Below are positions 1-10,717 of a DNA stretch of 10,717 nucleotides, in pieces. This DNA is from Methanospirillum sp. (GTDB lineage: Archaea > Halobacteriota > Methanomicrobia > Methanomicrobiales > Methanospirillaceae): NCBI GenBank assembly GCA_028695895.1, contig JAQVIE010000017.1:1-10717 (forward strand), written 5' to 3'. The notes beneath the pieces were generated by a model. That model did not search any database and was not told the origin of the DNA. It saw only the letters and a program-made list of their open reading frames with translations. The position numbers were made by a program, and so were the translations under genes. Every line of letters begins with the position of its first letter. The first letter of the stretch is position 1.

Positions 1-257
1 GTCCGTTTAGGCTGCTTGTTCAGTTTGATGTGAATGCATTCCAGGATGAGGCAAACCTCTCTTCATATGCAAATCAGACACATGCTTCTCTTAATGCGAC
101 AATGCTTAAGGATTTTTCCATGGATGGACTTACAGGTCTGTATCTGATTGAACTTTCCAACATGACAACTACAGAGGGAATTTCGGCTTATAAAAACCAG
201 ACTGCTGTAATATATGCGGAACCTGATTATGAGATAAAAATCAACGAACCAGTCTGA
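1..257 (+). CDS. C-terminal part of an extracellular protein ending in a subtilase-propeptide-like domain (partial)
   Basis: The reading frame (first full codon at 3) is open at the window edge and stops with TGA at 255-257, so only the last 84 residues are seen. They align by eye with the propeptide of the protease at 2465-4252: the ending IYAEPDYEIKI matches RYAEPNYVTYI there, and GLYLIELSNMTTTEGI matches GMQVVKIPDTTTVADA. This is the fervidolysin/I9-like propeptide fold that normally sits N-terminal to a subtilase catalytic domain; here it is the C-terminal end and no protease follows. The segment carries five N-x-S/T sequons (NLS, NQT, NAT, NMT, NQT), which suggests an exported, glycosylated protein. 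It could be an inhibitor or folding chaperone acting in trans on a protease, or just a reused beta-alpha-beta fold. The upstream domains are unknown. The internal GTG at 30 is not a start, because the homology extends upstream of it. Confidence 0.75.
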   Translation, partial: PFRLLVQFDVNAFQDEANLSSYANQTHASLNATMLKDFSMDGLTGLYLIELSNMTTTEGISAYKNQTAVIYAEPDYEIKINEPV

Positions 258-266
258 AAAGATAAA

Positions 267-1622
267 TTACTGAGGAGGCATCTGAAATTTACCTTCTTTT
301 ATATCTTCAACCCATTTTTGAAACATCTTTATTCCTTCAATCATTCTTCCTGCATACCTGTTAAAGAATGCTTCTTCTTCTTCAGGTTCAGGGGGCTTTT
401 CCAGGTATTCAAGAAGGGCTGATTCACCATCAAAGTCTGTACAGGAAAACCTGATGAAATAATCACCATATGGTGCCATCATTGCCTCACCTGTGACGGT
501 TGCGATATGGTAGGGATGGGAGATTAACGCAGGAGCCAGATCATTTGAATGCATGATGCCGGCATTTTGAAGCTCATTCATTAGAGGATTCAGGTCTGCC
601 ATGAAGTAAAAACCTGCCATGGGAGTTGTCACCCTGATTCCCCTGATGGTTTTGCACATCTCTGCAAGCCTTGAGGTTATTATCCGAAGGATATTTCTGA
701 CTGCTTCCAGGTACTGATCCATCTCTTTACCTGACCTGTATGCAGCAATTCCTGCTTCCTGGAGTGGTGCGGCAGAACTGGTGTAGATTGTTGCAGCAAT
801 TTTTGCAACATCTCGAATTATTTCAGGGTTAGTCCCTTCAGGCATGATACAGCTTCCAAGCCTGAAACCTCCTGCACCCATGCCTGCAGAAAGACTGTGG
901 ATAACAAAAGTGCCTTCAGGGTAAATTTTTCCCATGCTGACAAATGAAGAGGGTTCATATGCCAGAAGGCTGTATACCTCGTCAGACAGAACAAAAGTAT
1001 AATATTTCCTGCATATATTTGCAATTACCGTGAGTTCTTCTTTCGTGTAAAGTCCACCGGTCGGGTTGCCAGGATTGTTCAGGATCAAAAGATGCTGGGT
1101 CTTTACCAGTCCTCTAAGCATTGCTTCAAGGGTCTGAGGACGGATTTTAAAGTTGCCGGCACCATGGGTATAAAGCCTGTAATAAGGAACATTCAGGATT
1201 CGGAGCTGCGGCAGATATCCAAGCCAGCCTGGAGAAGGAATGATGACTGAACCGGTTAATAATGTTAAAATTGAAAAAATTAGTCCCTTTGCACCATGAC
1301 CGGTGATTACCCGGTACGGTTCAATATCAAGATCAAATCTTTCATTGAAAAATGATGCAACAGCTTCACGAATTTCGTTGTTCCCTATGGGGTCAGCATA
1401 TGTCCCCATACCGCTGTGAAGGGAGAGCGCTTTCTGGAGTGGTGAAGGAACAGGAAAGGGTGATTGTCCAAGTCCGAATTTATAAAATTCTGCCTGACAA
1501 CCTGTCTCCGCACAAAGTTCTCTCTGTTCTTCAATCAATCGAAAATATCTAAGGTTTTCCGGAACCTGGATCCGGTCAACCTTGGCATCGATCATAATGC
1601 CGGCCATGTGAGAGTGTCTCAC
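267..1622 (-). CDS. Class I/II aminotransferase homologue lacking the PLP-binding lysine (probable pseudoenzyme)
   Basis: The 451-residue protein has the aspartate-aminotransferase fold-type I signatures in order: GxGxxPFPVP near residue 50, Y75, NNPGNPTGG (Asn186, PLP O3' contact), SDEVY (Asp214 and Tyr217, PLP contacts), GGFRLG (Arg254, phosphate contact) and YFIRFS (Arg391, substrate alpha-carboxylate contact). At the Schiff-base position the class signature SLSK is SLSA: Ala246, codon GCA at 885-887. Every other position of that signature fits. Family knowledge says this lysine forms the internal aldimine and acts as the proton shuttle, so ordinary transamination should be lost. PLP or PMP could still bind non-covalently. 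The protein is about 50 residues longer than a typical family member, with an N-terminal extension and an acidic stretch after residue 410 (PPEPEEEE). The start is uncertain: GTG at 1622 lies 11 bp after the upstream stop without a clear Shine-Dalgarno; ATGs at 1607 and 1595 are alternatives. It is the last gene of the protease operon and its substrate is unknown. Confidence 0.9.
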   Translation of the reverse strand: MRHSHMAGIMIDAKVDRIQVPENLRYFRLIEEQRELCAETGCQAEFYKFGLGQSPFPVPSPLQKALSLHSGMGTYADPIGNNEIREAVASFFNERFDLDIEPYRVITGHGAKGLIFSILTLLTGSVIIPSPGWLGYLPQLRILNVPYYRLYTHGAGNFKIRPQTLEAMLRGLVKTQHLLILNNPGNPTGGLYTKEELTVIANICRKYYTFVLSDEVYSLLAYEPSSFVSMGKIYPEGTFVIHSLSAGMGAGGFRLGSCIMPEGTNPEIIRDVAKIAATIYTSSAAPLQEAGIAAYRSGKEMDQYLEAVRNILRIITSRLAEMCKTIRGIRVTTPMAGFYFMADLNPLMNELQNAGIMHSNDLAPALISHPYHIATVTGEAMMAPYGDYFIRFSCTDFDGESALLEYLEKPPEPEEEEAFFNRYAGRMIEGIKMFQKWVEDIKEGKFQMPPQ

Positions 1623-1633
1623 AGAGACAGCAA

Positions 1634-1933
1634 TTAAACTTTCTCTTCTTCGTAGATATTAACTGAGGATGGGAAGATACCTGGTCTTTCATCGGTCATG
1701 AAGGAGGTATAAGGGAGGATATGAACATAATATTCCAGGTATCCCTGGATTAATTCAGAAAGAATCTTCGATCTCCGTCCAAGAATAAGAACCACGAAAA
1801 ACTGTATGAACATGCAGAGACCTGCAATAAATCCATAAACCATCAGGACAATTCCAATAATAAATGAATAAATCATCCTGATGAATAATTCTATTCTTCC
1901 GGCTTTTTCTTCGTATTTAAATAACTGTTTCAT
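1634..1933 (-). CDS. Small DUF4389-like membrane protein
   Basis: This 99-residue protein has a charged N-terminus, then a long hydrophobic stretch from about residue 15 to 51 that can form two closely packed membrane helices. A basic turn follows (LGRRSK), then an amphipathic segment and the motif YTSFMTDERPGIFPSS. The layout (membrane helices, ILxGR turn, YxEYxxxxxPY, then TDxxP) is that of the DUF4389 family, whose function is unknown. It starts with ATG 9 bp after the stop of the cohesin-like gene; an AAGGT that overlaps this stop may serve as a distant ribosome binding site, suggesting translational coupling. Between two secreted proteins and the aminotransferase homologue it could be the membrane component of the operon's system, but no anchor or transporter role can be read from the sequence. 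Confidence 0.8.
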   Translation of the reverse strand: MKQLFKYEEKAGRIELFIRMIYSFIIGIVLMVYGFIAGLCMFIQFFVVLILGRRSKILSELIQGYLEYYVHILPYTSFMTDERPGIFPSSVNIYEEEKV

Positions 1934-1942
1934 GTATCTCTC

Positions 1943-2455
1943 TTACCTTGATGCAGGGATCATCGGGTTCGGCCCTGCTCCGGATATAACAATACTTGCT
2001 GTTTTACTTATTGGGTAATACCTGCCTTTCTTGTCATCATCGACTATTACAGGTTCTGCACTGAGTGTTGCATATCCGGCGGTCAGGGCATGAATGGATA
2101 TCTTTGCAAGATTTGATGTGGAAAGTCCGGGTTCAACATGATTTCCAAGGTCAGCTCCCTGTATAAGGACTGTTGAACTGTTAATATGTTCTACCTTGTT
2201 TATTGTGACCCATGAAGGAAAGGTTATCTCACCAAATGATGCAACAGTCGGGTTATCAAGAATAAGGTACAAGGCGTACCCTGAAATTCCTGCATTACAC
2301 CCTTCCAGTATGAGGTCAATTGCTGGTTGTTCCCCAGGGTTTGATTCAACAACCGAGGGGTTGAAAAATAGGAGTGAGTAAGCTGATACTGGTGCAATCA
2401 GTCCGGCAATCAGGAAAAGTGCACCAAGCACTCCGATAGTATACTTATGTTTCAT
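1943..2455 (-). CDS. Secreted cohesin-like protein
   Basis: A 170-residue protein with a clear signal peptide (positive start MKHKY, hydrophobic core, cleavage likely after APVSA at residue 25). The mature part is a single beta-rich module of about 130 residues resembling the cohesin fold: an early ESNPGEQPAIDLIL strand, GISGYALYLILDNP, then LAKISIHALTAG and a final TASIVISG strand. There is no C-terminal membrane anchor, so it should be released or held by a partner. The start chosen is the ATG at 2455: a strong AGGTGAT, overlapping the stop of the protease gene, sits 4 nt upstream. GTG at 2464 directly abuts that stop and ATG at 2461 lies inside the same motif; both lack room for a binding site. 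The gene lies immediately downstream of a protease ending in a dockerin, the usual partner of a cohesin. The cohesin call rests on pattern similarity, not a database search. Confidence 0.75.
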   Translation of the reverse strand: MKHKYTIGVLGALFLIAGLIAPVSAYSLLFFNPSVVESNPGEQPAIDLILEGCNAGISGYALYLILDNPTVASFGEITFPSWVTINKVEHINSSTVLIQGADLGNHVEPGLSTSNLAKISIHALTAGYATLSAEPVIVDDDKKGRYYPISKTASIVISGAGPNPMIPASR

Positions 2456-2464
2456 CTTCATCAC

Positions 2465-4252
2465 CTAAACCATCTGGTATAATTTCACGATATCACCAAA
2501 CCCGATAAAGCCACTGCCATCAAAGTCGAACTGACCGACAGGCTCTTCTTTTATTGCGAAGAGTATCTGGTCAAAGAGGAGTTTTGGATCTTCGTATTCA
2601 AGCCATCCGTTTCCGTTGATATCTTCATAGAGTCCGTCATCATCAGGGTCAGTCGGAGCAGGATAATCTCCGCCTGTTTTGTCAGGAAATGCCTTTACCG
2701 GCTGATATGGGGGTTTGACATGTATGTAATCATCTTTTTCAGCAAATGAGCTCAGTCCCTCTTTGAATATGGTGAGTGTGATTGAGTACTTCCCTGGTTT
2801 CATGTATACATGTGTTGGATTTTGCAGTCCGGATTCAAACCCGTCGCCAAATGTCCATTGCCATGTTTCAGGGTTTCCTGAAGAAAGGTCTGTAAATTGA
2901 ACATTGAGGGGAATCGTTCCAGAAATGGGTTCTGCCTTAAATGCTGCTGTTAATGGACGAATCCGGCTAAGTGCTTCATAGGCATTAAGTCTTCCTCCGG
3001 TGGCACATTTACTTTCCAGCCATGATTTCATGTCAACAGAATTGAGGATCACATTTTTAATTGCAATTGTATCATATCCAGGTTTTTGACTTTTGATAAG
3101 TGCAGCCGTTCCGGAAACGAAAGGAGCTGCCATTGATGTGCCATCCATGAATCCATAACTTCCTGGCAGTGTACTATAGATGTCCATCCCTGGTGCCAGA
3201 AGGTCTACTGACGAAGTGCCATAATTTGAAAACCAGGTAAGCATGTCATTTTCATCACTTGCTCCTACAGATATGATATTTGCTGAGTTATATGCTGCCG
3301 GATAAACTGGTGTCTCATCAATGTCAAGTTCTTCATTTCCGGCAGAACATACAAATAGTGCCTGGGAACTGTCAATAGTCTCTTTTAACGCCTCGCTATA
3401 ATTATTACCTCCCCATGAACAGGAGATGATATCAGCCCCCTGTTCCTCTGCATATTTTATTCCCATGATTTCAAGGGCAATATTACTCTTACCTGTTGAA
3501 TCAAAGACTTTTACCGGAAGTATCTTTGAGTTCCAGCTGACACCTGCAATACCTATGGAATTGTTTGTTACCGCACTGATTATTCCTGCACAGTGCGTTC
3601 CATGACCATTGTCATCTGCCGGGTTGTCATCAAAGCTGACAAAGTTATATCCGGGAATGCAATTTTCTGCAAGATCTTCATGGTTATAATCAACACCCGT
3701 GTCAATTACTGCAACAATTACATCAGCTGAGCCGGTAATTATGTTCCAGGCCTCTGGTGCACTGATATCTGCCCGTTCTGAACTGATATTTTGCGTGTTG
3801 TAAAGACCCCACTGAAGATAAAAACCAGGGTCATTTGGAATTGTCATCCCTGATGATTCATTGCCCTGTTCGCTGATTGAATTTTCAGTGCCACCTATTG
3901 GTCCTGGTATATATGTCACATAATTTGGTTCTGCATACCTGACATATTCACTTGATTTAAAAAATCTGACTGCATCAGCGACTGTTGTTGTATCAGGTAT
4001 TTTTACAACCTGCATTCCCTTTTTTCCAAGTATTTCTTCTGAATAGATAATGTCAGCACCTATGTCAGTATTCAAAGAAGAAGCGACTGATGCAATCGCT
4101 GTTCCTGATCCAATATCTGCATACCTGACGATGACCTCACCAGGCATATATGTTTGAGACAATTGTTCGGCCTGCACTCCTCCCCATCCTGCTCCTATAA
4201 GCATGAACAGGAGACAAGCTCTAAAAATCCACGATACACTAACTCGTTCCAT
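2465..4252 (-). CDS. Secreted subtilisin-like serine protease (S8) with propeptide, PKD and C-terminal dockerin
   Basis: This 595-residue preproprotein has a signal peptide at about 1-29 and a propeptide at about 35-115 ending RYAEPNYVTYIPG. The S8 catalytic domain (about 145-430) has all key residues: Asp184 in AVIDTGVD, His217 in NGHGTHCAG, oxyanion Asn306 in CSAGNE and Ser373 in DGTSMAAP. A PKD domain follows at about 433-513 (WQWTFGDG, then NPTHVYMKPGKYSITLTI). At the C-terminus are two calcium-binding F-hand loops, D544-D555 (DINGNGWLEYED) and D576-D587 (DFDGSGFIGFGD), spaced 32 residues like a type I dockerin; an acidic DPDDDG linker precedes them. The catalytic residues predict an active, autoprocessed extracellular protease. 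The dockerin predicts attachment to a cohesin, and the next gene encodes a cohesin-like protein. It is the first gene of a four-gene minus-strand operon. The ATG at 4252 is preceded by GAGGT with a 7-nt spacer. Confidence 0.95.
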   Translation of the reverse strand: MERVSVSWIFRACLLFMLIGAGWGGVQAEQLSQTYMPGEVIVRYADIGSGTAIASVASSLNTDIGADIIYSEEILGKKGMQVVKIPDTTTVADAVRFFKSSEYVRYAEPNYVTYIPGPIGGTENSISEQGNESSGMTIPNDPGFYLQWGLYNTQNISSERADISAPEAWNIITGSADVIVAVIDTGVDYNHEDLAENCIPGYNFVSFDDNPADDNGHGTHCAGIISAVTNNSIGIAGVSWNSKILPVKVFDSTGKSNIALEIMGIKYAEEQGADIISCSWGGNNYSEALKETIDSSQALFVCSAGNEELDIDETPVYPAAYNSANIISVGASDENDMLTWFSNYGTSSVDLLAPGMDIYSTLPGSYGFMDGTSMAAPFVSGTAALIKSQKPGYDTIAIKNVILNSVDMKSWLESKCATGGRLNAYEALSRIRPLTAAFKAEPISGTIPLNVQFTDLSSGNPETWQWTFGDGFESGLQNPTHVYMKPGKYSITLTIFKEGLSSFAEKDDYIHVKPPYQPVKAFPDKTGGDYPAPTDPDDDGLYEDINGNGWLEYEDPKLLFDQILFAIKEEPVGQFDFDGSGFIGFGDIVKLYQMV

Positions 4253-4315
4253 CCTTCATACCTCTGTATACAGAAAAATTTAGTAATTGTTTATATTCTA
4301 TTTTTTATATATCTT
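4253..4315 (-). promoter_or_regulatory. Promoter and ribosome binding site of the protease operon
   Basis: On the minus strand, AAGATATATAAAAAA (4301-4315) contains a good archaeal TATA box (TATATAAA, 4304-4311). Transcription starting about 25 nt downstream would begin near 4282 and give a leader of about 30 nt that includes the GAGGT ribosome binding site (4260-4264). This is inferred from sequence and spacing only. Confidence 0.55.
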
Positions 4316-4392
4316 AATAGTATAAATAATTAACAGATGTAATCCTGAATTCTACTTCTTATATTCATTTAAAATAATTGCATGCTACATAA

Positions 4393-4419
4393 TTCAAAAA
4401 AGTATTTAAAAAATTTGAA
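4393..4419 (-). terminator. Probable archaeal T-tract terminator of hcp
   Basis: About 60 nt beyond the hcp stop, the minus strand carries two runs of six T (4396-4401 and 4408-4413) inside an imperfect palindrome with arms TTCAAA (4393-4398) and TTTGAA (4414-4419). Oligo-T tracts are the usual intrinsic termination signal in archaea. The rest of the 227-bp spacer 4253-4479 is AT-rich; apart from the protease promoter, no gene is evident in it. Confidence 0.5.
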
Positions 4420-4479
4420 CGGGTTTCTCTGGCAGGTTTTTGAATGAAATAAACCTACACCATTGAAAAAGTTTAAAAT

Positions 4480-6090
4480 TCAAGCTGGACAAAGCAGCTT
4501 CATATCCGCATCAACGGTTGTATTTGGAGCAATCCCGAACTGTTCCACCAGGACTTTTAGAACAGCAGGTGAGACGAATGCTGGAAGCTTAGGTCCAAGG
4601 GTAATATTTTTTACGCCAAGTGAGAGCAGGGCAAGCAGCACCAGAACCGCTTTTTGTTCATACCATGCGATATTATACGAAATCGGAAGATCATTAATCC
4701 CGACATTGAATGCCTCAGCAAGGGCCTTTGCAATAACTACCAGTGAGTATGAGTCATTGCACTGACCGGCATCAATGACACGTGGGATTCCACCGATATC
4801 TCCAAGCGGCAGATAATTATACCGAAACTTTGCACATCCTGCTGTAAGGATAACTGCATCTGACGGAAGTGCCTGTGCAAAAGTAGTGTAATATTCCCGC
4901 TCTTTCTGCCTTCCATCACATCCGGCCATAACTACAAATCGTTTAATATCTCCAGCCTTAATTGCTCCGATTACTGGTTCGGCAAGTGATAACACTGCGT
5001 TATGAGCACAACCTGTAATAAGATCAGGACCTGATGAGGGGAGTGATTTTGGCGGACTAGAGGTTTTTGCCTGATTTATCAGGATAGAAAAGTCTTTTGT
5101 ACCATCAGGATTTGCATTTACGTGGGCAACACCTGGAAAACCGGTAAGGCCTGTTGTGTAGATACGCCCTTTGTACGAATCCTTTGGAGGGACAATACAG
5201 TTGGTAGTGACGAGAACCGGACCATTGAATGATTCAAACTCTTTCTTTTGATGTGGCCATGATCCTCCGTAATTCCCGACAAGATGTGAATATTTCTTCA
5301 GTCCAGGATAGGCATGGGCTGGAAGCATCTCACCATGGGTGTATATATCTATACCGGCATCTTTCGATTGTTCAAGCAGCATTGCAAGATCCTTCAGGTC
5401 ATGACCGGTTACAAGGATACCAGGCCTGTTCTTTGGTACGGTGCTGACGGTTGTAATTTCAGGATTTCCATAGGTCTTTGTGTTTGCAGTATCCAGCAGT
5501 TCAAGTACCTTTACCCCCATACTTCCGCATTCCATGACTTTTGATATCATATCCGGGACTGTAAGATCCTGAATAGTTGAAGCAAGGGCTGTCTGCAGGA
5601 AAAGTTCAATCTCCGTATCTGTATACCCAAGGATAACTGCATGTGAATAATATGCCCCGATTCCTTTCAGACCGTAAATCAGCAGCTCACGAAGGGAACG
5701 GACATCTTCATCCTTTGTTGCCATCACCCCGGTTTCCGGCACGTTCTTTAGAATATCCTCTTCGGATTTAAATGTCAGGGTACAGGAATCATGTGCCGGG
5801 CAGTTATCATTCTTTATTGCATTACGCACCCTGGTTACTTCAGATATGCGGTCCCAAATTACAGTTTTATCAAAGTTGACATTAGTCAGTGTCATAAAAA
5901 GGGACTCTGCAACCAGTAGTCCGACATCTGCCTGGTCCTCCTTTTTTGCTGATATGTTCTTAGCTGCAAGACCCTTGAGTGAATAAATAAGGGCGTCCTG
6001 GTATGCAGCCGTCACATCATCTTTTCCGCATATTCCAAGAGTGGTACACCCGGTACCCTTGGAAGTCTCTTCACATTGATAACAGAACAT
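4480..6090 (-). CDS. hcp: Hybrid cluster protein (Hcp, 'hydroxylamine reductase'), full-length form
   Basis: This 536-residue cytoplasmic iron-sulfur protein carries an N-terminal cysteine motif, C3-x2-C6-x8-C15-x5-C21, for the standard cluster. All ligands of the hybrid 4Fe-2O-2S cluster can be placed: His230 (TGHDLKDL), Glu254 (THGEMLPAHAYP), Cys298 (TTNCIVPP), Cys391 (MAGCDGR, the position that carries the persulfide), Cys419 (TAGCAKFRYN), Cys444 (DAGQCNDSYS), Glu478 and Lys480 (WYEQKA). The length fits the full class with the three-helix N-terminal insertion typical of strict anaerobes, rather than the shortened archaeal class. Family knowledge: Hcp reduces nitric oxide and, in vitro, hydroxylamine, and is induced by nitrosative or oxidative stress. 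No Hcr-type reductase gene is adjacent. AAAGGAG lies 6 nt before the ATG. Divergence from an HxlR regulator suggests redox control. Confidence 0.97.
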   Translation of the reverse strand: MFCYQCEETSKGTGCTTLGICGKDDVTAAYQDALIYSLKGLAAKNISAKKEDQADVGLLVAESLFMTLTNVNFDKTVIWDRISEVTRVRNAIKNDNCPAHDSCTLTFKSEEDILKNVPETGVMATKDEDVRSLRELLIYGLKGIGAYYSHAVILGYTDTEIELFLQTALASTIQDLTVPDMISKVMECGSMGVKVLELLDTANTKTYGNPEITTVSTVPKNRPGILVTGHDLKDLAMLLEQSKDAGIDIYTHGEMLPAHAYPGLKKYSHLVGNYGGSWPHQKKEFESFNGPVLVTTNCIVPPKDSYKGRIYTTGLTGFPGVAHVNANPDGTKDFSILINQAKTSSPPKSLPSSGPDLITGCAHNAVLSLAEPVIGAIKAGDIKRFVVMAGCDGRQKEREYYTTFAQALPSDAVILTAGCAKFRYNYLPLGDIGGIPRVIDAGQCNDSYSLVVIAKALAEAFNVGINDLPISYNIAWYEQKAVLVLLALLSLGVKNITLGPKLPAFVSPAVLKVLVEQFGIAPNTTVDADMKLLCPA

Positions 6091-6173
6091 CGTCTTCTCC
6101 TTTGTATCTTTTTGCTACATAATATCTTTTGTATATCAAATTATAAATAGAGGGATGTTTCTAAAACTATACT
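6091..6173. promoter_or_regulatory. Divergent hcp / HxlR-regulator promoter region
   Basis: These 83 bp hold both promoters. The AT element at 6137-6150 (CAAATTATAAATAG) reads as a TATA box in both directions. To the left it lies 47 to 55 nt before the hcp ATG, leaving a leader of about 28 nt with AAAGGAG (6097-6103). To the right it lies about 25 to 35 nt before the regulator ATG at 6174, which has no ribosome binding site, so that transcript would be essentially leaderless. A direct repeat ATATC-N6-ATATC (6122-6137), 11 bp apart and close to the predicted hcp start, is a candidate operator. Confidence 0.55.
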
Positions 6174-6533
6174 ATGGACAATTCCTGCACAGTTAACCTG
6201 ACGGTGCGTTACCTTACAAAAAAATGGACTCTTCTAATTATTCTGGAACTCTACAAAGGTGATCAGTATACCCGAAGATTTTCTGAACTTAAAGACGCTC
6301 TCCTTGGAATCACGCCCAAAATATTATCTGAACGGTTAAAAGAACTGGAACAGGAAGGAATTATTGGAAACCGAATTGATGCAGACTGTTTTCCTGTAAA
6401 GAGTGAGTATTACTTAACCGAAAGCGGTATAGAAATCATTGATATTATCAAAGAGATTAAAATATGGGCATTAAAATGGAAGATTGACAATATCCCCTGT
6501 CAGAATCAGGACTGCAGGGTCTGTGTACTTTAA
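6174..6533 (+). CDS. HxlR-family winged-helix transcriptional regulator with cysteine-rich tail
   Basis: This 119-residue protein follows the HxlR pattern: a short N-terminus with Cys5, KKWTLLIILELYKGD (residues 16-30), RRFSELKDALLGITPKILSERLKELEQEGII forming the recognition helix-turn-helix (about 34-64), and a wing with YYLTESG (79-85). It would bind DNA as a dimer. Some family members (YodB, HypR types) sense electrophiles or disulfide stress through a cysteine near the N-terminus, where Cys5 lies. Unusual is the C-terminal cluster C109-x4-C114-x2-C117 in the last 11 residues, plus Cys72; it could bind a metal or Fe-S cluster or form disulfides. The gene is divergent from hcp across 83 bp, the classic layout for a regulator and its target. 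The ATG at 6174 is chosen because the promoter spacing fits leaderless translation and the homology begins there. Confidence 0.93.
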   Translation: MDNSCTVNLTVRYLTKKWTLLIILELYKGDQYTRRFSELKDALLGITPKILSERLKELEQEGIIGNRIDADCFPVKSEYYLTESGIEIIDIIKEIKIWALKWKIDNIPCQNQDCRVCVL

Positions 6534-6576
6534 AATATCTTGTCATCCACCTATCATATTGCAAATTTCCAGGTGC

Positions 6577-6584
6577 TTTAAAAA
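6577..6584 (+). promoter_or_regulatory. Weak candidate TATA box for the TPR gene
   Basis: TTTAAAAA lies 32 nt before the proposed CTG start. A transcript starting about 25 nt downstream would begin around 6602-6606, barely leaving room for the ribosome binding site at 6604. Readthrough from the regulator gene, whose stop is at 6533, is an equally possible source of transcription. Confidence 0.25.
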
Positions 6585-6603
6585 CCCATGGTGCAGATAA
6601 GCC

Positions 6604-6618
6604 AGGAGGAGTAATCTG
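6604..6618 (+). promoter_or_regulatory. Shine-Dalgarno and probable CTG start codon of the TPR gene
   Basis: AGGAGG (6604-6609) is a near-perfect Shine-Dalgarno. Six bases further lies an in-frame CTG (6616-6618). Between the in-frame stop TAA at 6598-6600 and the first ATG at 6664 there is no ATG, GTG or TTG in frame, while ATG 6664 has no ribosome binding site of its own. Repeat 1 of the TPR array starts with the Trp codon at 6655-6657, upstream of that ATG. Confidence 0.6.
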
Positions 6619-9600
6619 GCAGGACAGATAGGACCAGCTGATAAAGTTCAAAAATGGCTGTCAATGGGAATGGCGTTTCTCAAAAAGGATCAGTATGATC
6701 GTGCGTATTACGCATTTAAAGAAGGTCTTCGTATTGATCCGGATAATTCAGAGCTCTGGTTTCAGACCGGAGTAGTTCTCACAAAACAAGATCGCCACCG
6801 GGATGCCATGAAAATGTTCAGGAATGCATTGAAATTTGATCCTGATAATCTGAATGCACAGCTCCGTTTAGGCATGTCCATGCATGAGGTTGGCATGTAT
6901 AAAGAGGCCATTCCTGTTTTAACCCGTCTTGTTGAACGTGAATCTGAGAATGATCAGGTTTGGATGTACAGGGGTGCTTGTTTTCTTGCCCTGAACAAGT
7001 TCAGGGAAGCCCTGGCTGATCTTAATATGGCAGTTGACTGGGGAGCAGAGCAGGCTGAAGTCTGGGTTTTGAAAGGTTATTGCCACCTGCAGCTTGGATC
7101 GTTTTCAGATGCATTTGATGCTTATAATTTTGCAATTGAGATAAATCCTGATGACCCGGTTGCGTTTTTTGGTTTTGCCAATGTCCTTGTTCAACAGGAT
7201 GAAAGAGAACAGGCAATTAAAGCCCTGAAAAATGCTGTAAAAATTGATAATGATTATACCGACGCCTGGAAGATGATCGCCGATCTTTTTGCAGATACAG
7301 GCGATATTTCCCAGGCTATGGCTGCATATGAACAGGTCCTGAAACTTGAACCTTGGGATCTTGATACACGTTACACTTACTCAATTTTAAAGGCAGAGTT
7401 ATCTGAAGACAAGGATGCAGTTGTTGACATATTAAACCATATCATCAATGAAGGCCAGGAAACGGTCACATTTTATAATAATCATGGTCTGACCCTGATG
7501 CACCTGAAAAAATATGAGAGTGCACTCCAGGCATTTAACCGGGCTTTACAACTTGAAAAAGGCAATCCTTCTGTATGGCATAATCATGGTGCAGCCCTTT
7601 ACAAGCTCAGATGGTATAAAGATGCAATAAAGTCCTTTCAGCAGTCTTTAAAATTTAATCCGAAAAACGTCAACTCCTGGGTTGGTATCGGAATGGTTGC
7701 TGTTGCACAGTATGAATTCAGCCGGGCTGCTGCTGCATATACCCATGCTACACAACTGAATCCACACAAGGTAAATATATGGATAATGCTTGGAGATACT
7801 CAGGTTGAGAGGGGACAATTTAAAGATGCAATTGCTGCATATGAAAAAGCCCTGGAGCTTGATCCTGAAAACCCTGCTGCCTGGAATCAGCGTGGAATTG
7901 TTCTCCGGCTTCTTGACAGTCATTCGTCTGCCCTTGAATCATTTGAACATGCAACAGAAACAAAGAATGCAAAACCGGAATCCTGGATTAATCATGCTAT
8001 CACAAGTTTTGAACTTGGGGAGTATGACCAGTCAGTCCATTCTTTCGAGCTGGCCTGTAAATTCGGCCCGATAACTCCTGATAGCTGGCTTATTTACCTG
8101 AATGCCCTGGCTTATGAACATGAAAACCAGAAACTTATCAAGGCTGCGGAAAAGTTTATTGAATTGTTCAGGCTGGATGCTGAGGCACTCTTCCTGTTAG
8201 GTGTTGCTCATTATGAGTTAAAACAGTACGAAGCAGCCTTGTATCATTTCAAAGAGACGATAAAGCTGGAAAAAGATCATAGTGAAGCCTTTTTCTGGAC
8301 TGGTCTGACACTTTTTGAATTATTCCGGTTTTCTGAGGCGATTACCTGTTTTGAGCAGGTTGAGGATAATCATCCTGATGATGATCAGGCCTGGTTTTAT
8401 CATGGAAAGGCATTATTATCTTTAAATGAATTACAAAAGGCTGATTTCATCCTGAAACATTCTCTTCATATAAATGATCAGTCTGCTGATGCATGGTACC
8501 TGCTGGCAGAAGTTCAGTATACCAGAGAGGTGCATGCAGAAGCTCTTCAGTCTATTGGTAAAGCCCTTGATTTATCTTCTTCCAATAATGAAATCCTTAA
8601 ACTGAAGGCAAAAATTCAGATTGCACTTGGATCTTACCGGGGTGCATGTCAGACATATGCTGTTATAAGCGAGCCTGATGCCAGCGATGATGAAGTTCTT
8701 ACTGGATATTCCCAAGCCTTGTATCACACCGGACAATTCCGCGAAGCTAGTATACGTGTTGCCAGCCTGCTTGCTAAGAACGATAAAAATCCTGATCTCT
8801 GGAGGATGAAGGCAGAGATAGAGCAGGCACAGGGTCTGTTTGAAGAAGCTGCATCTGCCCTGACCGAAGCATGCAAACATGCTCCAAATGATAAAAAACT
8901 TTTAACGTTACAGGGCATTGTCCTTTACGAGGCAGAAAAATATCCGGAAGCAATATCGGTAATTGATAGTGTTTTAAAATTTGATCCACTTAACGGGGAA
9001 TTGTGGAAGAGAAAAGGAGGGGCTCATTATGCCATGGAACAGTATGAATTGGCTTCTGAATCATATCTTAAGGCTGTAGAGTTTCTACAAGATGATCCTT
9101 ATCTTATAAGAGGGCTTGGGGTGGCCTTGTATAAAACCGGAAGATGTGAATTAGCTCTTCCACGACTTGAACAGTATCTTGAGGTGGTTCCTGATGACCC
9201 GGATATCTGGGAGATGAAGGGAAATGTCCTTATCAACCAGGGAAAGTATGAATCTGCGAGTACTGCGTTTTCCCAGGCAATTCTCTTTCGACCGGATGAT
9301 GGAGATTTACTCTACAGGTACGCATATAGTCTTGTAAAATCCGGAGAATTACTTGCTGCCATCCCCCTGCTGGATCAGGTAATCGATCAAAATAACGAGA
9401 ATGTAAAAGCCTGGAAACTGAAAGCGGAGATTGAACAGGCTCTTGGAAGGGAAAATGAAGCTGTCCAGGCTGTGGAGGAGGCATTACGGCAGATACCAGA
9501 TGATCCCGGCCTGATGATAAGCAAGGTTACTTCTCTTTACGAGGCTGGTTCGTATATGGAAGGACTTGATCTGGTCAGGGAGGTGATAGATAAATCCCCG

Positions 9601-9867
9601 GAGAGTTATGAGGCATGGTTATTGTATGCAGAACTGCTCTGGATGACTGCTGATCACAATGCTGCCGCTGATGCATATGACCGGATACTGGCACTTGATG
9701 ATATTAATGCAAAAGCCTGGTTTTTAAAAGGTGATTCTTTGCAGAATGCTGGTCGTTTTGAAGAAGCTGCAATTGCCCATGAACGGGCTTTCTCATTGGG
9801 GGGCGATCCTTCCGTTGGTTTGATGCTCTCTAAAAAGATGCGATACCTCCAGCAAAAAAAGGAGTAA
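6616..9867 (+). CDS. Giant cytoplasmic TPR protein, 31 consecutive tetratricopeptide repeats
   Basis: Read from the proposed CTG start the protein has 1083 residues: a 13-residue leader (L/M-AGQIGPADKVQK), 31 repeats laid end to end, and a 15-residue basic tail ending YLQQKKE. Every repeat is 34 residues except the eighth, which is 35 (starting RYTYSIL). Repeats show the canonical pattern, often with Trp at position 1, Gly/Ala at 8, Tyr/Phe at 11, Ala at 20 and Pro near 32, for example WIMLGDTQVERGQFKDAIAA. There is no signal peptide, membrane helix or other domain, so it should be a cytoplasmic superhelical scaffold of about four turns for protein partners that cannot be named from sequence. 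With the first ATG (6664) it would be 1067 residues and lose the first three residues of repeat 1. Similar long TPR-only proteins are common in Methanomicrobiales. It may be co-transcribed with the upstream regulator but shows no clear functional link to it. Confidence 0.93.
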   Translation: MAGQIGPADKVQKWLSMGMAFLKKDQYDRAYYAFKEGLRIDPDNSELWFQTGVVLTKQDRHRDAMKMFRNALKFDPDNLNAQLRLGMSMHEVGMYKEAIPVLTRLVERESENDQVWMYRGACFLALNKFREALADLNMAVDWGAEQAEVWVLKGYCHLQLGSFSDAFDAYNFAIEINPDDPVAFFGFANVLVQQDEREQAIKALKNAVKIDNDYTDAWKMIADLFADTGDISQAMAAYEQVLKLEPWDLDTRYTYSILKAELSEDKDAVVDILNHIINEGQETVTFYNNHGLTLMHLKKYESALQAFNRALQLEKGNPSVWHNHGAALYKLRWYKDAIKSFQQSLKFNPKNVNSWVGIGMVAVAQYEFSRAAAAYTHATQLNPHKVNIWIMLGDTQVERGQFKDAIAAYEKALELDPENPAAWNQRGIVLRLLDSHSSALESFEHATETKNAKPESWINHAITSFELGEYDQSVHSFELACKFGPITPDSWLIYLNALAYEHENQKLIKAAEKFIELFRLDAEALFLLGVAHYELKQYEAALYHFKETIKLEKDHSEAFFWTGLTLFELFRFSEAITCFEQVEDNHPDDDQAWFYHGKALLSLNELQKADFILKHSLHINDQSADAWYLLAEVQYTREVHAEALQSIGKALDLSSSNNEILKLKAKIQIALGSYRGACQTYAVISEPDASDDEVLTGYSQALYHTGQFREASIRVASLLAKNDKNPDLWRMKAEIEQAQGLFEEAASALTEACKHAPNDKKLLTLQGIVLYEAEKYPEAISVIDSVLKFDPLNGELWKRKGGAHYAMEQYELASESYLKAVEFLQDDPYLIRGLGVALYKTGRCELALPRLEQYLEVVPDDPDIWEMKGNVLINQGKYESASTAFSQAILFRPDDGDLLYRYAYSLVKSGELLAAIPLLDQVIDQNNENVKAWKLKAEIEQALGRENEAVQAVEEALRQIPDDPGLMISKVTSLYEAGSYMEGLDLVREVIDKSPESYEAWLLYAELLWMTADHNAAADAYDRILALDDINAKAWFLKGDSLQNAGRFEEAAIAHERAFSLGGDPSVGLMLSKKMRYLQQKKE

Positions 9868-9903
9868 CTTTATCAATTAATGTTGCCTGTAGTGTCTTGA
9901 GCT

Positions 9904-9940
9904 GATGAACATGAAGTTTTTGATGCAAAACCTGTTCATC
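9904..9940. repeat. 8-bp perfect inverted repeat between the TPR gene and the next gene
   Basis: GATGAACA (9904-9911) and TGTTCATC (9933-9940) are exact reverse complements separated by 21 bp, with a short T-run (9917-9921) inside. The repeat lies 36 bp after the TPR stop and ends about 10 bp before the TATA box of the following gene. It could be an operator next to the promoter or part of a terminator; the long loop and the absence of a T-tract after the second arm favour the operator reading. Confidence 0.4.
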
Positions 9941-9950
9941 GTACAAATCT

Positions 9951-10010
9951 CTTATATATTCAGCCGACTACCATTCTTACAGATTGAGTATAAGTTACGA
10001 GGAGTTAGGA
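9951..10010 (+). promoter_or_regulatory. Promoter and ribosome binding site of the DUF4430-like gene
   Basis: CTTATATAT (9951-9959) is a good archaeal TATA box. A start about 25 nt downstream, near 9980, leaves a leader of about 36 nt containing GAGGAG (9999-10004, 11 nt before the ATG) and AGGA (10007-10010, 5 nt before it). The 148-bp spacer 9868-10015 contains no gene. Confidence 0.5.
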
Positions 10011-10015
10011 ACCAG

Positions 10016-10717
10016 ATGAGGAAAAGGGATATTGTGAGGTTATGGGTACCGGGTATTCTGACCATTCTGCTTGTATGTGTTATCTTCCAACCGTGTTTTG
10101 GGGCCGGAATTCCGGTTCAACAGGTACAAAACCAGGTTGTCATATTTTCAGGATTAATTCCATATGGGGATGGAAATGTTTCAATAAGATCTGAAACAGG
10201 GGCACTATACCAGATACCGGCTATGACTCCAGTTGGCATCATACAAGCACTGGCTGGAACAGGGATGATTGAAAGTTATAATATCGGCGATGAGCTTGTT
10301 GACAAACGGGGAATTTTCACTCTTGACGGAATAAATTCATACCTGGTGTCCGGGCAGGAGGCTTGGTTTGTTCTTGTTAATGGTATCCAGCTTAGGGAAT
10401 ACCTTCTTCCATCAGTTGAGGGATTGAACACTTATCTGCTAAAGGATGGAGATGATGTTCTTTTTGCATATGGAGATCCAACCCTGCCGCCCAGTGCAGC
10501 AAAAGCCCTTGTATGGGTTCAGGTAGGAAATAAAAAAAGTTCTATGCAATTGTTTTCCCCATCAACAATGATGGGCCAGTATGTTCTGTCACAGGTACCG
10601 GTAACATCAGTACCTGTTCAGACTCCTGTTCCTGTTGCTTTGGCAGAGCCCACGAATGCTTCCACCCCTGTTCCTGTTGCTTTGGCTGAGCCCACTAATG
10701 CTTCCACCCCTGTTCCT
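10016..10717 (+). CDS. Secreted DUF4430-like protein with Pro/Thr-rich glycosylatable stalk (partial, 3' end cut)
   Basis: The frame is open from ATG 10016 to the window end: 234 residues, with the stop not seen. A signal peptide covers about residues 1-29 (MRKRD, hydrophobic core, end near CFGAG). Residues 40-155 resemble a DUF4430/transcobalamin C-terminal-like beta-grasp domain: TPVGIIQAL, GIFTLDGINSYL, QEAWFVLVNG, then LLKDGDDVLFAYGDP, matching the family's GW-x-VNG and late GD-V-x-x-x-Y features. After a linker it enters a Pro/Val/Thr-rich region whose 14-residue unit TPVPVALAEPTNAS is tandemly repeated, each unit with one N-A-S glycosylation sequon. This looks like a cell-surface protein with a ligand- or partner-binding head and a stalk; an anchor or further domain may follow outside the window. 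Family knowledge gives no firm function for DUF4430 in methanogens. It has its own promoter and no visible tie to the TPR gene. Confidence 0.8.
   Translation, partial: MRKRDIVRLWVPGILTILLVCVIFQPCFGAGIPVQQVQNQVVIFSGLIPYGDGNVSIRSETGALYQIPAMTPVGIIQALAGTGMIESYNIGDELVDKRGIFTLDGINSYLVSGQEAWFVLVNGIQLREYLLPSVEGLNTYLLKDGDDVLFAYGDPTLPPSAAKALVWVQVGNKKSSMQLFSPSTMMGQYVLSQVPVTSVPVQTPVPVALAEPTNASTPVPVALAEPTNASTPVP
10622..10717 (+). repeat. 42-bp in-frame tandem repeat
   Basis: Two full 42-bp units (10622-10663 and 10664-10705) plus the first 12 bases of a third (10706-10717) are seen. Units 1 and 2 differ at only three third-codon positions (ACT/ACC, GCA/GCT, ACG/ACT), all silent, so the peptide unit is identical. 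The array continues past the window edge. Confidence 0.95.

Follow-up and report, generated by a model that had tools for sequence, protein, structure and literature searches.

A dockerin-tailed subtilase and a cohesin-type protein encoded side by side in Methanospirillum: a likely docking pair with exchangeable protease cargo

Introduction

Does a secreted protease of a methanogen have its docking partner encoded in the very next gene? The question is raised by a 10,717-nucleotide stretch of DNA from Methanospirillum sp. (assembly GCA_028695895.1, contig JAQVIE010000017.1, positions 1 to 10,717; hereafter the window), which is contig C90 of a 1.70-Mb assembly that is 76 % complete. On its minus strand, which carries all features described below unless marked otherwise, a subtilase gene ending in a dockerin-type tail is directly followed by a gene for a small secreted cohesin-like protein. 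We consider it likely, with a probability of roughly 0.7, that the two proteins encoded here are cognate dockerin and cohesin partners, the cohesin acting as adaptor for an exchangeable protease cargo that docks through calcium F-hands.

The protease and its C-terminal tail

The protease gene (2465..4252) encodes a putatively exported subtilase of 595 residues with matches to Peptidase_S8 (E-value 1.8e-59), PKD_4 (3.6e-14) and the fervidolysin N-prodomain (2.5e-12) in Pfam. The fervidolysin-type N-terminal prodomain spans residues 28-110 (3923..4171, PF22148), the S8 catalytic domain residues 177-406 (3035..3724, PF00082) and the PKD domain residues 446-498 (2759..2917, PF18911). The catalytic motifs DTGVD, GHGTH and GTSMA start at residues 184, 216 and 371 of the translation. 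Signal peptides of this protein and of the 170-residue protein encoded behind it were judged by eye from the sequence, with no predictor.

Residues 531-595 (2468..2662) form the dockerin-type tail, delimited with a dockerin profile built here (A6). Both F-hand loops, DINGNGWLEYED (D544-D555, with D544, N546, N548 and D555; 2588..2623) and DFDGSGFIGFGD (D576-D587, with D576, D578, S580 and D587; 2492..2527), have the 12-residue dockerin spacing and lie near the C-terminus; mapping of residues to DNA (2623-2588 and 2527-2492) agreed with the loops and coordinates of a first-pass annotation made from the letters alone. These are canonical loops in a dockerin-like layout, and calcium binding is predicted from them. 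Profile A6 matches the tail with an E-value of 8.8e-32, by construction, since the tail is one of its rows. When the tail was searched against PDB as a single sequence, the dockerin 4uyp_B was the best match (E 0.0035), followed by an EF-hand protein (E 0.004).

The downstream gene encodes a predicted cohesin fold

The gene behind the protease (1943..2455) starts with an ATG at 2455, with an alternative GTG at 2464 in the same frame, and encodes a secreted protein of 170 residues with a cohesin module at residues 25-160 (1976..2383). Its residues 1-169 match a cohesin profile, of which the protein is itself a row. AlphaFold2 modelled it as a cohesin-type beta-sandwich of ten strands with a predicted local distance difference test (pLDDT) score of 86.8. 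In a Foldseek search with this model the ranks 1-45 were all cohesins (best E 5.6e-9), and 49 of the 50 listed entries were titled cohesin or scaffoldin, the remaining one being an interaction module of a C. perfringens GH84 protein. The autonomous stand-alone cohesin ScaG of Ruminococcus flavefaciens (4n2o, 4wkz), which works with a cellulosome, had a lower fold score against the window protein than type I and archaeal cohesins. The fold of the 170-residue protein, as modelled, is that of a cohesin, which agrees with the cohesin-like label of the first-pass annotation.

Searches of Pfam, NCBIfam and, with the single sequence, PDB gave no cohesin match for this protein, and Pfam Cohesin had no match anywhere in the window's own genome. 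PF00963 matches one of 13 aligned members of the family (24.3 against 24.1). The cohesin profile A3, built here, found nothing useful in PDB, and profile A7 had a Scaffoldin C chain as its best PDB match (E 0.015), the other matches being mostly antibody chains.

Conservation of the gene pair

We ran profiles A3 and A6 on 12 genomes of the genus and obtained 42 cohesin modules and 68 dockerin matches. The pair is conserved in these relatives: 30 of the 42 modules begin behind a same-strand dockerin match, at a distance of 6-47 bases, and a further eight are the second cohesin gene of a dockerin-cohesin cluster. The loci are orthologous, so the independent evidence within the genus consists of three kinds of pair, not thirty. 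A second dockerin-cohesin pair was found in the window's own genome (L002). A secreted family starting with IPPxPxEFYG is encoded behind two different dockerin-cohesin pairs (L002:2122-2649 and L059:2955-3601; 59 of 119 columns identical); its member in L002 has a hydrophobic C-terminal end, and the family is a possible third partner.

In the single-contig genome G024 (3,544,738 bases) all three cohesin loci lie directly behind dockerin genes, the chance for one locus being 1.4e-4. This bears on the explanation that the two genes are unrelated neighbours, with an F-hand tail whose sole role is calcium-mediated stabilisation of the protease and a cohesin-like protein that is an independent adhesin. 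Some cohesin genes do have no dockerin neighbour, as such an explanation would allow, but it fits poorly with the three G024 loci and with the finding that dockerin and cohesin stay together as the catalytic domain changes (see next section), and we regard it as very improbable.

A family-wide search gave matches in 66 of 100 genomes. The best locus was taken from 30 of these; all 12 loci of the genus are paired, as are 8 of the 18 from other genera. Outside the family we took one region each from 38 of the 51 genomes with matches and counted as paired those with a dockerin gene within 400 bases. The cohesin lies directly behind a dockerin gene in 23 of the 38 regions, or in 17 when only the best-scoring cohesin is counted.

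A different build recurs in other genera: the first gene encodes a large protein that has a cohesin inside and a dockerin at its C-terminus, and the cohesin encoded behind it probably ends in a transmembrane helix (L066:2360-9156, L067:5601-11760, L068:3282-9498, L069, L070:1016-7123, also L098, L106 and L107). Such proteins could form chains on the cell surface. In a relative from the same taxonomic order (genome G336), one open frame (L077:3280-4560) has three consecutive cohesin matches and encodes a scaffoldin-like protein. Genome G003 encodes single polypeptides that combine a C1 protease, or an NHL propeller, with a cohesin and a dockerin, in this order (L074:1465-3249 and L075:514-3048).

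Exchange of the catalytic domain

The protease of the pair was typed in 10 of the 12 genus genomes, the other two being 64 % and 67 % complete. An S8 subtilase lies upstream of the cohesin in six (the window, L003, L004, L005, G024 and G058) and a papain-type C1 protease in four (Methanospirillum stamsii (L006), G032, G039 and G067). Pairwise alignment of the window protease with that of M. stamsii is significant only from residue 433 onwards, where PKD domain, linker and dockerin are identical in 108 of 163 columns (66 %), and gave no significant match between the catalytic halves. Identical residues occupy 53 of 65 positions in the two dockerin tails and 116 of 171 (68 %) in the two cohesins.

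Behind the pair, the window encodes a DUF4389 membrane protein (1634..1933; PF14333, E 2.7e-17), and L003-L006 and L061 have a DUF4389-like protein in this place too. Among the C1 genomes M. stamsii and the more distant G067 have this gene, and another gene takes its place in G032 and G039. Since M. stamsii, G067 and the window share it, we read all three as the same locus, in which the catalytic module has been exchanged. Trees of the cohesins and of the PKD-dockerin parts permit a single exchange between S8 and C1, weakly supported (52/79; 63/50), and give no direction for it. A catalytic exchange in which the docking tail and the socket are retained is what a working pair predicts, and it is the strongest indirect evidence here; the dockerin and cohesin proteins probably work together. 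The exchange amounts to a natural domain swap and suggests that what is conserved as a unit is the docking pair.

The gene pairing proposed at first pass as a protease-cohesin operon held up. The checks on fold and conservation suggested there left the first-pass interpretation standing, and it is supported in part, but the pair is not special to this protease, as seen from the S8/C1 exchange, the second pair in the same genome and the three loci of G024. In these archaea the order dockerin gene, then cohesin gene recurs, and the supposed protease complex is one instance of it.

Could the cohesin instead be a general socket for several dockerins of its genome, placed behind the protease for co-expression only? 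Classic cohesins often bind several dockerins, and three of the six dockerin genes of G024 have no cohesin behind them (a second S8 protease of 600 residues, a NosD-like beta-helix protein and one more). Against the close likeness of the window dockerin to the C1-linked one of M. stamsii, however, stand only 29 of 63 positions identical to the orphan S8 dockerin. Dockerin loop positions 10-11, which set specificity, also differ, being YE/FG in the protease pair and IQ/LG in the second pair. We therefore consider a general socket unlikely.

Points against a cognate pair

Several results weigh against a cognate pair. Four of the 42 genus cohesins have no upstream dockerin (two at a contig edge, one sharing a contig with one of these and one a weak match). 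The number per genus genome is 2-8 for dockerin matches and 2-5 for cohesin modules, so that partners may be shared, and neighbouring genes are co-inherited, so that the genus counts are not independent. Ten of the 18 best family loci outside the genus are without an upstream dockerin; eight of the ten end in a likely transmembrane helix, one of these eight with too little upstream sequence. Outside the family 15 of the 38 regions are unpaired, seven of them from one genus. In the C1-type loci L059 and L060 a gene other than DUF4389 follows the pair. As for the tail, Pfam Dockerin_1 does not match it at an E-value of 1, and a PDB search with the dockerin profile ranked EF-hand proteins above dockerins, which were among the matches. 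An AlphaFold2 model of an in-frame read-through from dockerin to cohesin was uninformative (dockerin pLDDT about 49-69, predicted template modelling score 0.53); it merged the signal peptide and the last dockerin helix into one long helix, and its structure comparison covered the cohesin part only.

We also considered the tail as a plain EF-hand domain. The ranking in the PDB profile search favours this, and it is countered by relatives found with the same dockerin profile that pass the Dockerin_1 cut-off of 22.9 (24.3 and 27.8). Another gene of the window's own genome scores 24.6 against the same cut-off.

Gene coupling, possible anchoring and a proposed mechanism

An AGGTGA ribosome-binding site (2461..2466) lies five bases ahead of the cohesin ATG and overlaps the TAG stop codon of the protease (2465..2467), as the first-pass annotation had it, and the overlap is kept in L003, L004 and L005. 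It suggests linked amounts of protease and cohesin, and the two genes may be translationally coupled.

The first-pass annotation saw no anchor on the cohesin either, and a simple hydropathy window revealed no C-terminal transmembrane stretch in it (best value 0.61). Eight relatives that do have such a stretch, and lack a preceding dockerin gene, reached 2.26-2.85. Other members of the cohesin family have a transmembrane helix, or PKD and PEGA domains, behind the module. The window protein ends in a Pro-rich tail of 12 residues, GAGPNPMIPASR (1946..1981), whose GAGPxP core is conserved in 13 of 14 aligned cohesin proteins, the exception being the second-pair protein of L002. In the AlphaFold2 model pLDDT falls below 50 at residues 163-167.

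A bare module of 170 residues without an anchor, produced in amounts that may be linked to those of the protease, might also be a protector or export partner, which caps the dockerin against self-clipping of the protease tail and has no anchoring role. However, the transmembrane or PKD-PEGA parts of the relatives point to retention, and capping alone leaves the conserved C-terminal tail unexplained; such a protector seems to us quite unlikely.

If dockerin and cohesin are a cognate pair, the subtilase would be exported and lose its prodomain on maturation, and its two C-terminal loops would fold with calcium outside the membrane. Through these loops it would dock onto the cohesin that the following gene encodes, in linked amounts set by the overlapping stop codon and ribosome-binding site. 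The cohesin would place the protease, with the Pro-rich tail standing in for an anchor, which is the weakest step, and the protease would be held at the cell envelope, perhaps at the sheath. Binding, its dependence on calcium, and the location and substrate of the protease are the parts of this scheme that we infer. If it is true, methanogens would gain a defined means of holding proteases at the envelope.

More tentatively, and at somewhat under even odds, gene order may act as a partner code in this archaeal phylum, the usual partner of a cohesin being the dockerin encoded just upstream. The loci would then be sockets for swappable cargo, be it a subtilase, a papain-like protease, a beta-propeller or PKD proteins, placed ahead of a docking tail that is conserved, and would serve non-cellulosomal surface display. 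Such a rule, if true, predicts the partner of each cohesin.

Comparison with known systems

The closest known system is the pair ORF2375 (dockerin) and ORF2376 (cohesin, structure 2xdh) of Archaeoglobus fulgidus, which has the same gene order, judged by the numbers, and the same module positions, and for which binding is described as strong and specific (PMC9705933). The window has this layout, with a dockerin-ending gene followed directly by a cohesin gene. In contrast to the A. fulgidus pair, the dockerin gene here is a recognisable protease whose catalytic domain varies by species, and the cohesin protein consists of one module and a short tail; binding has been reported for the A. fulgidus pair and is predicted here. 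The exchangeable protease cargo and the unanchored cohesin are new relative to this archaeal two-gene pair, and among the papers listed by the literature searches made here none was seen on the protease-cohesin pair itself.

Dockerins are also borne by a subtilase of Clostridium thermocellum, an S8 protease with the double dockerin dDoc_0689 and a proposed location at the cell surface (PMC12484212). It differs in being bacterial and cellulosome-tied, in its double dockerin, and in its preferred partner, a cell-bound scaffoldin, where the window has a single cohesin encoded next door. The PDB chains 8x39 (E 0.0071) and 8x3a (E 0.01), both named 'Serine protease' and weakly matched by our dockerin profile, are probably this protein. 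R. flavefaciens RflaF_05439 combines papain-like modules (NlpC/P60 type) with a C-terminal X-dockerin (PMC3573020), and is reported to pair with the surface-anchoring ScaE cohesin (PMC12484212). Unlike the window pair, this cysteine-peptidase-like dockerin protein belongs to a cellulosome system. Methanotrophic archaea are reported to encode many dockerins and cohesins, some proteins having as many as five cohesins, with partner assignment left to experiment (PMC9012536, PMC5244752), and in Methanococcus maripaludis cohesins are proposed as hydrogenase anchors (PMC11452385). The window's own genome, at its 76 % completeness, encodes two single-cohesin proteins, and no listed open frame of the 12 genus genomes contains two of the 42 A3 matches, which argues that the window system is not a cellulosome.

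Neighbouring genes

At the edge of the window (3-257, plus strand) lie the C-terminal 84 residues of a gene with two fervidolysin-type prodomains and no protease domain. It is conserved near the pair on the opposite strand (L003:3553-4332(-), L004:4361-5302(-), L005:8204-9118(-) and L006:8215-8943(-)) and is retained at the M. stamsii locus despite the C1 protease there; its product may be a free-standing inhibitor of subtilases or help them to fold. Further genes of the window encode a hybrid-cluster (prismane family) protein (4480-6090, minus strand) with a divergent HxlR-type regulator (6174-6533, plus strand), and a very long TPR-like repeat protein of 1067 residues, recognised by eye (6664-9867, plus strand), which has a similar protein in L006.
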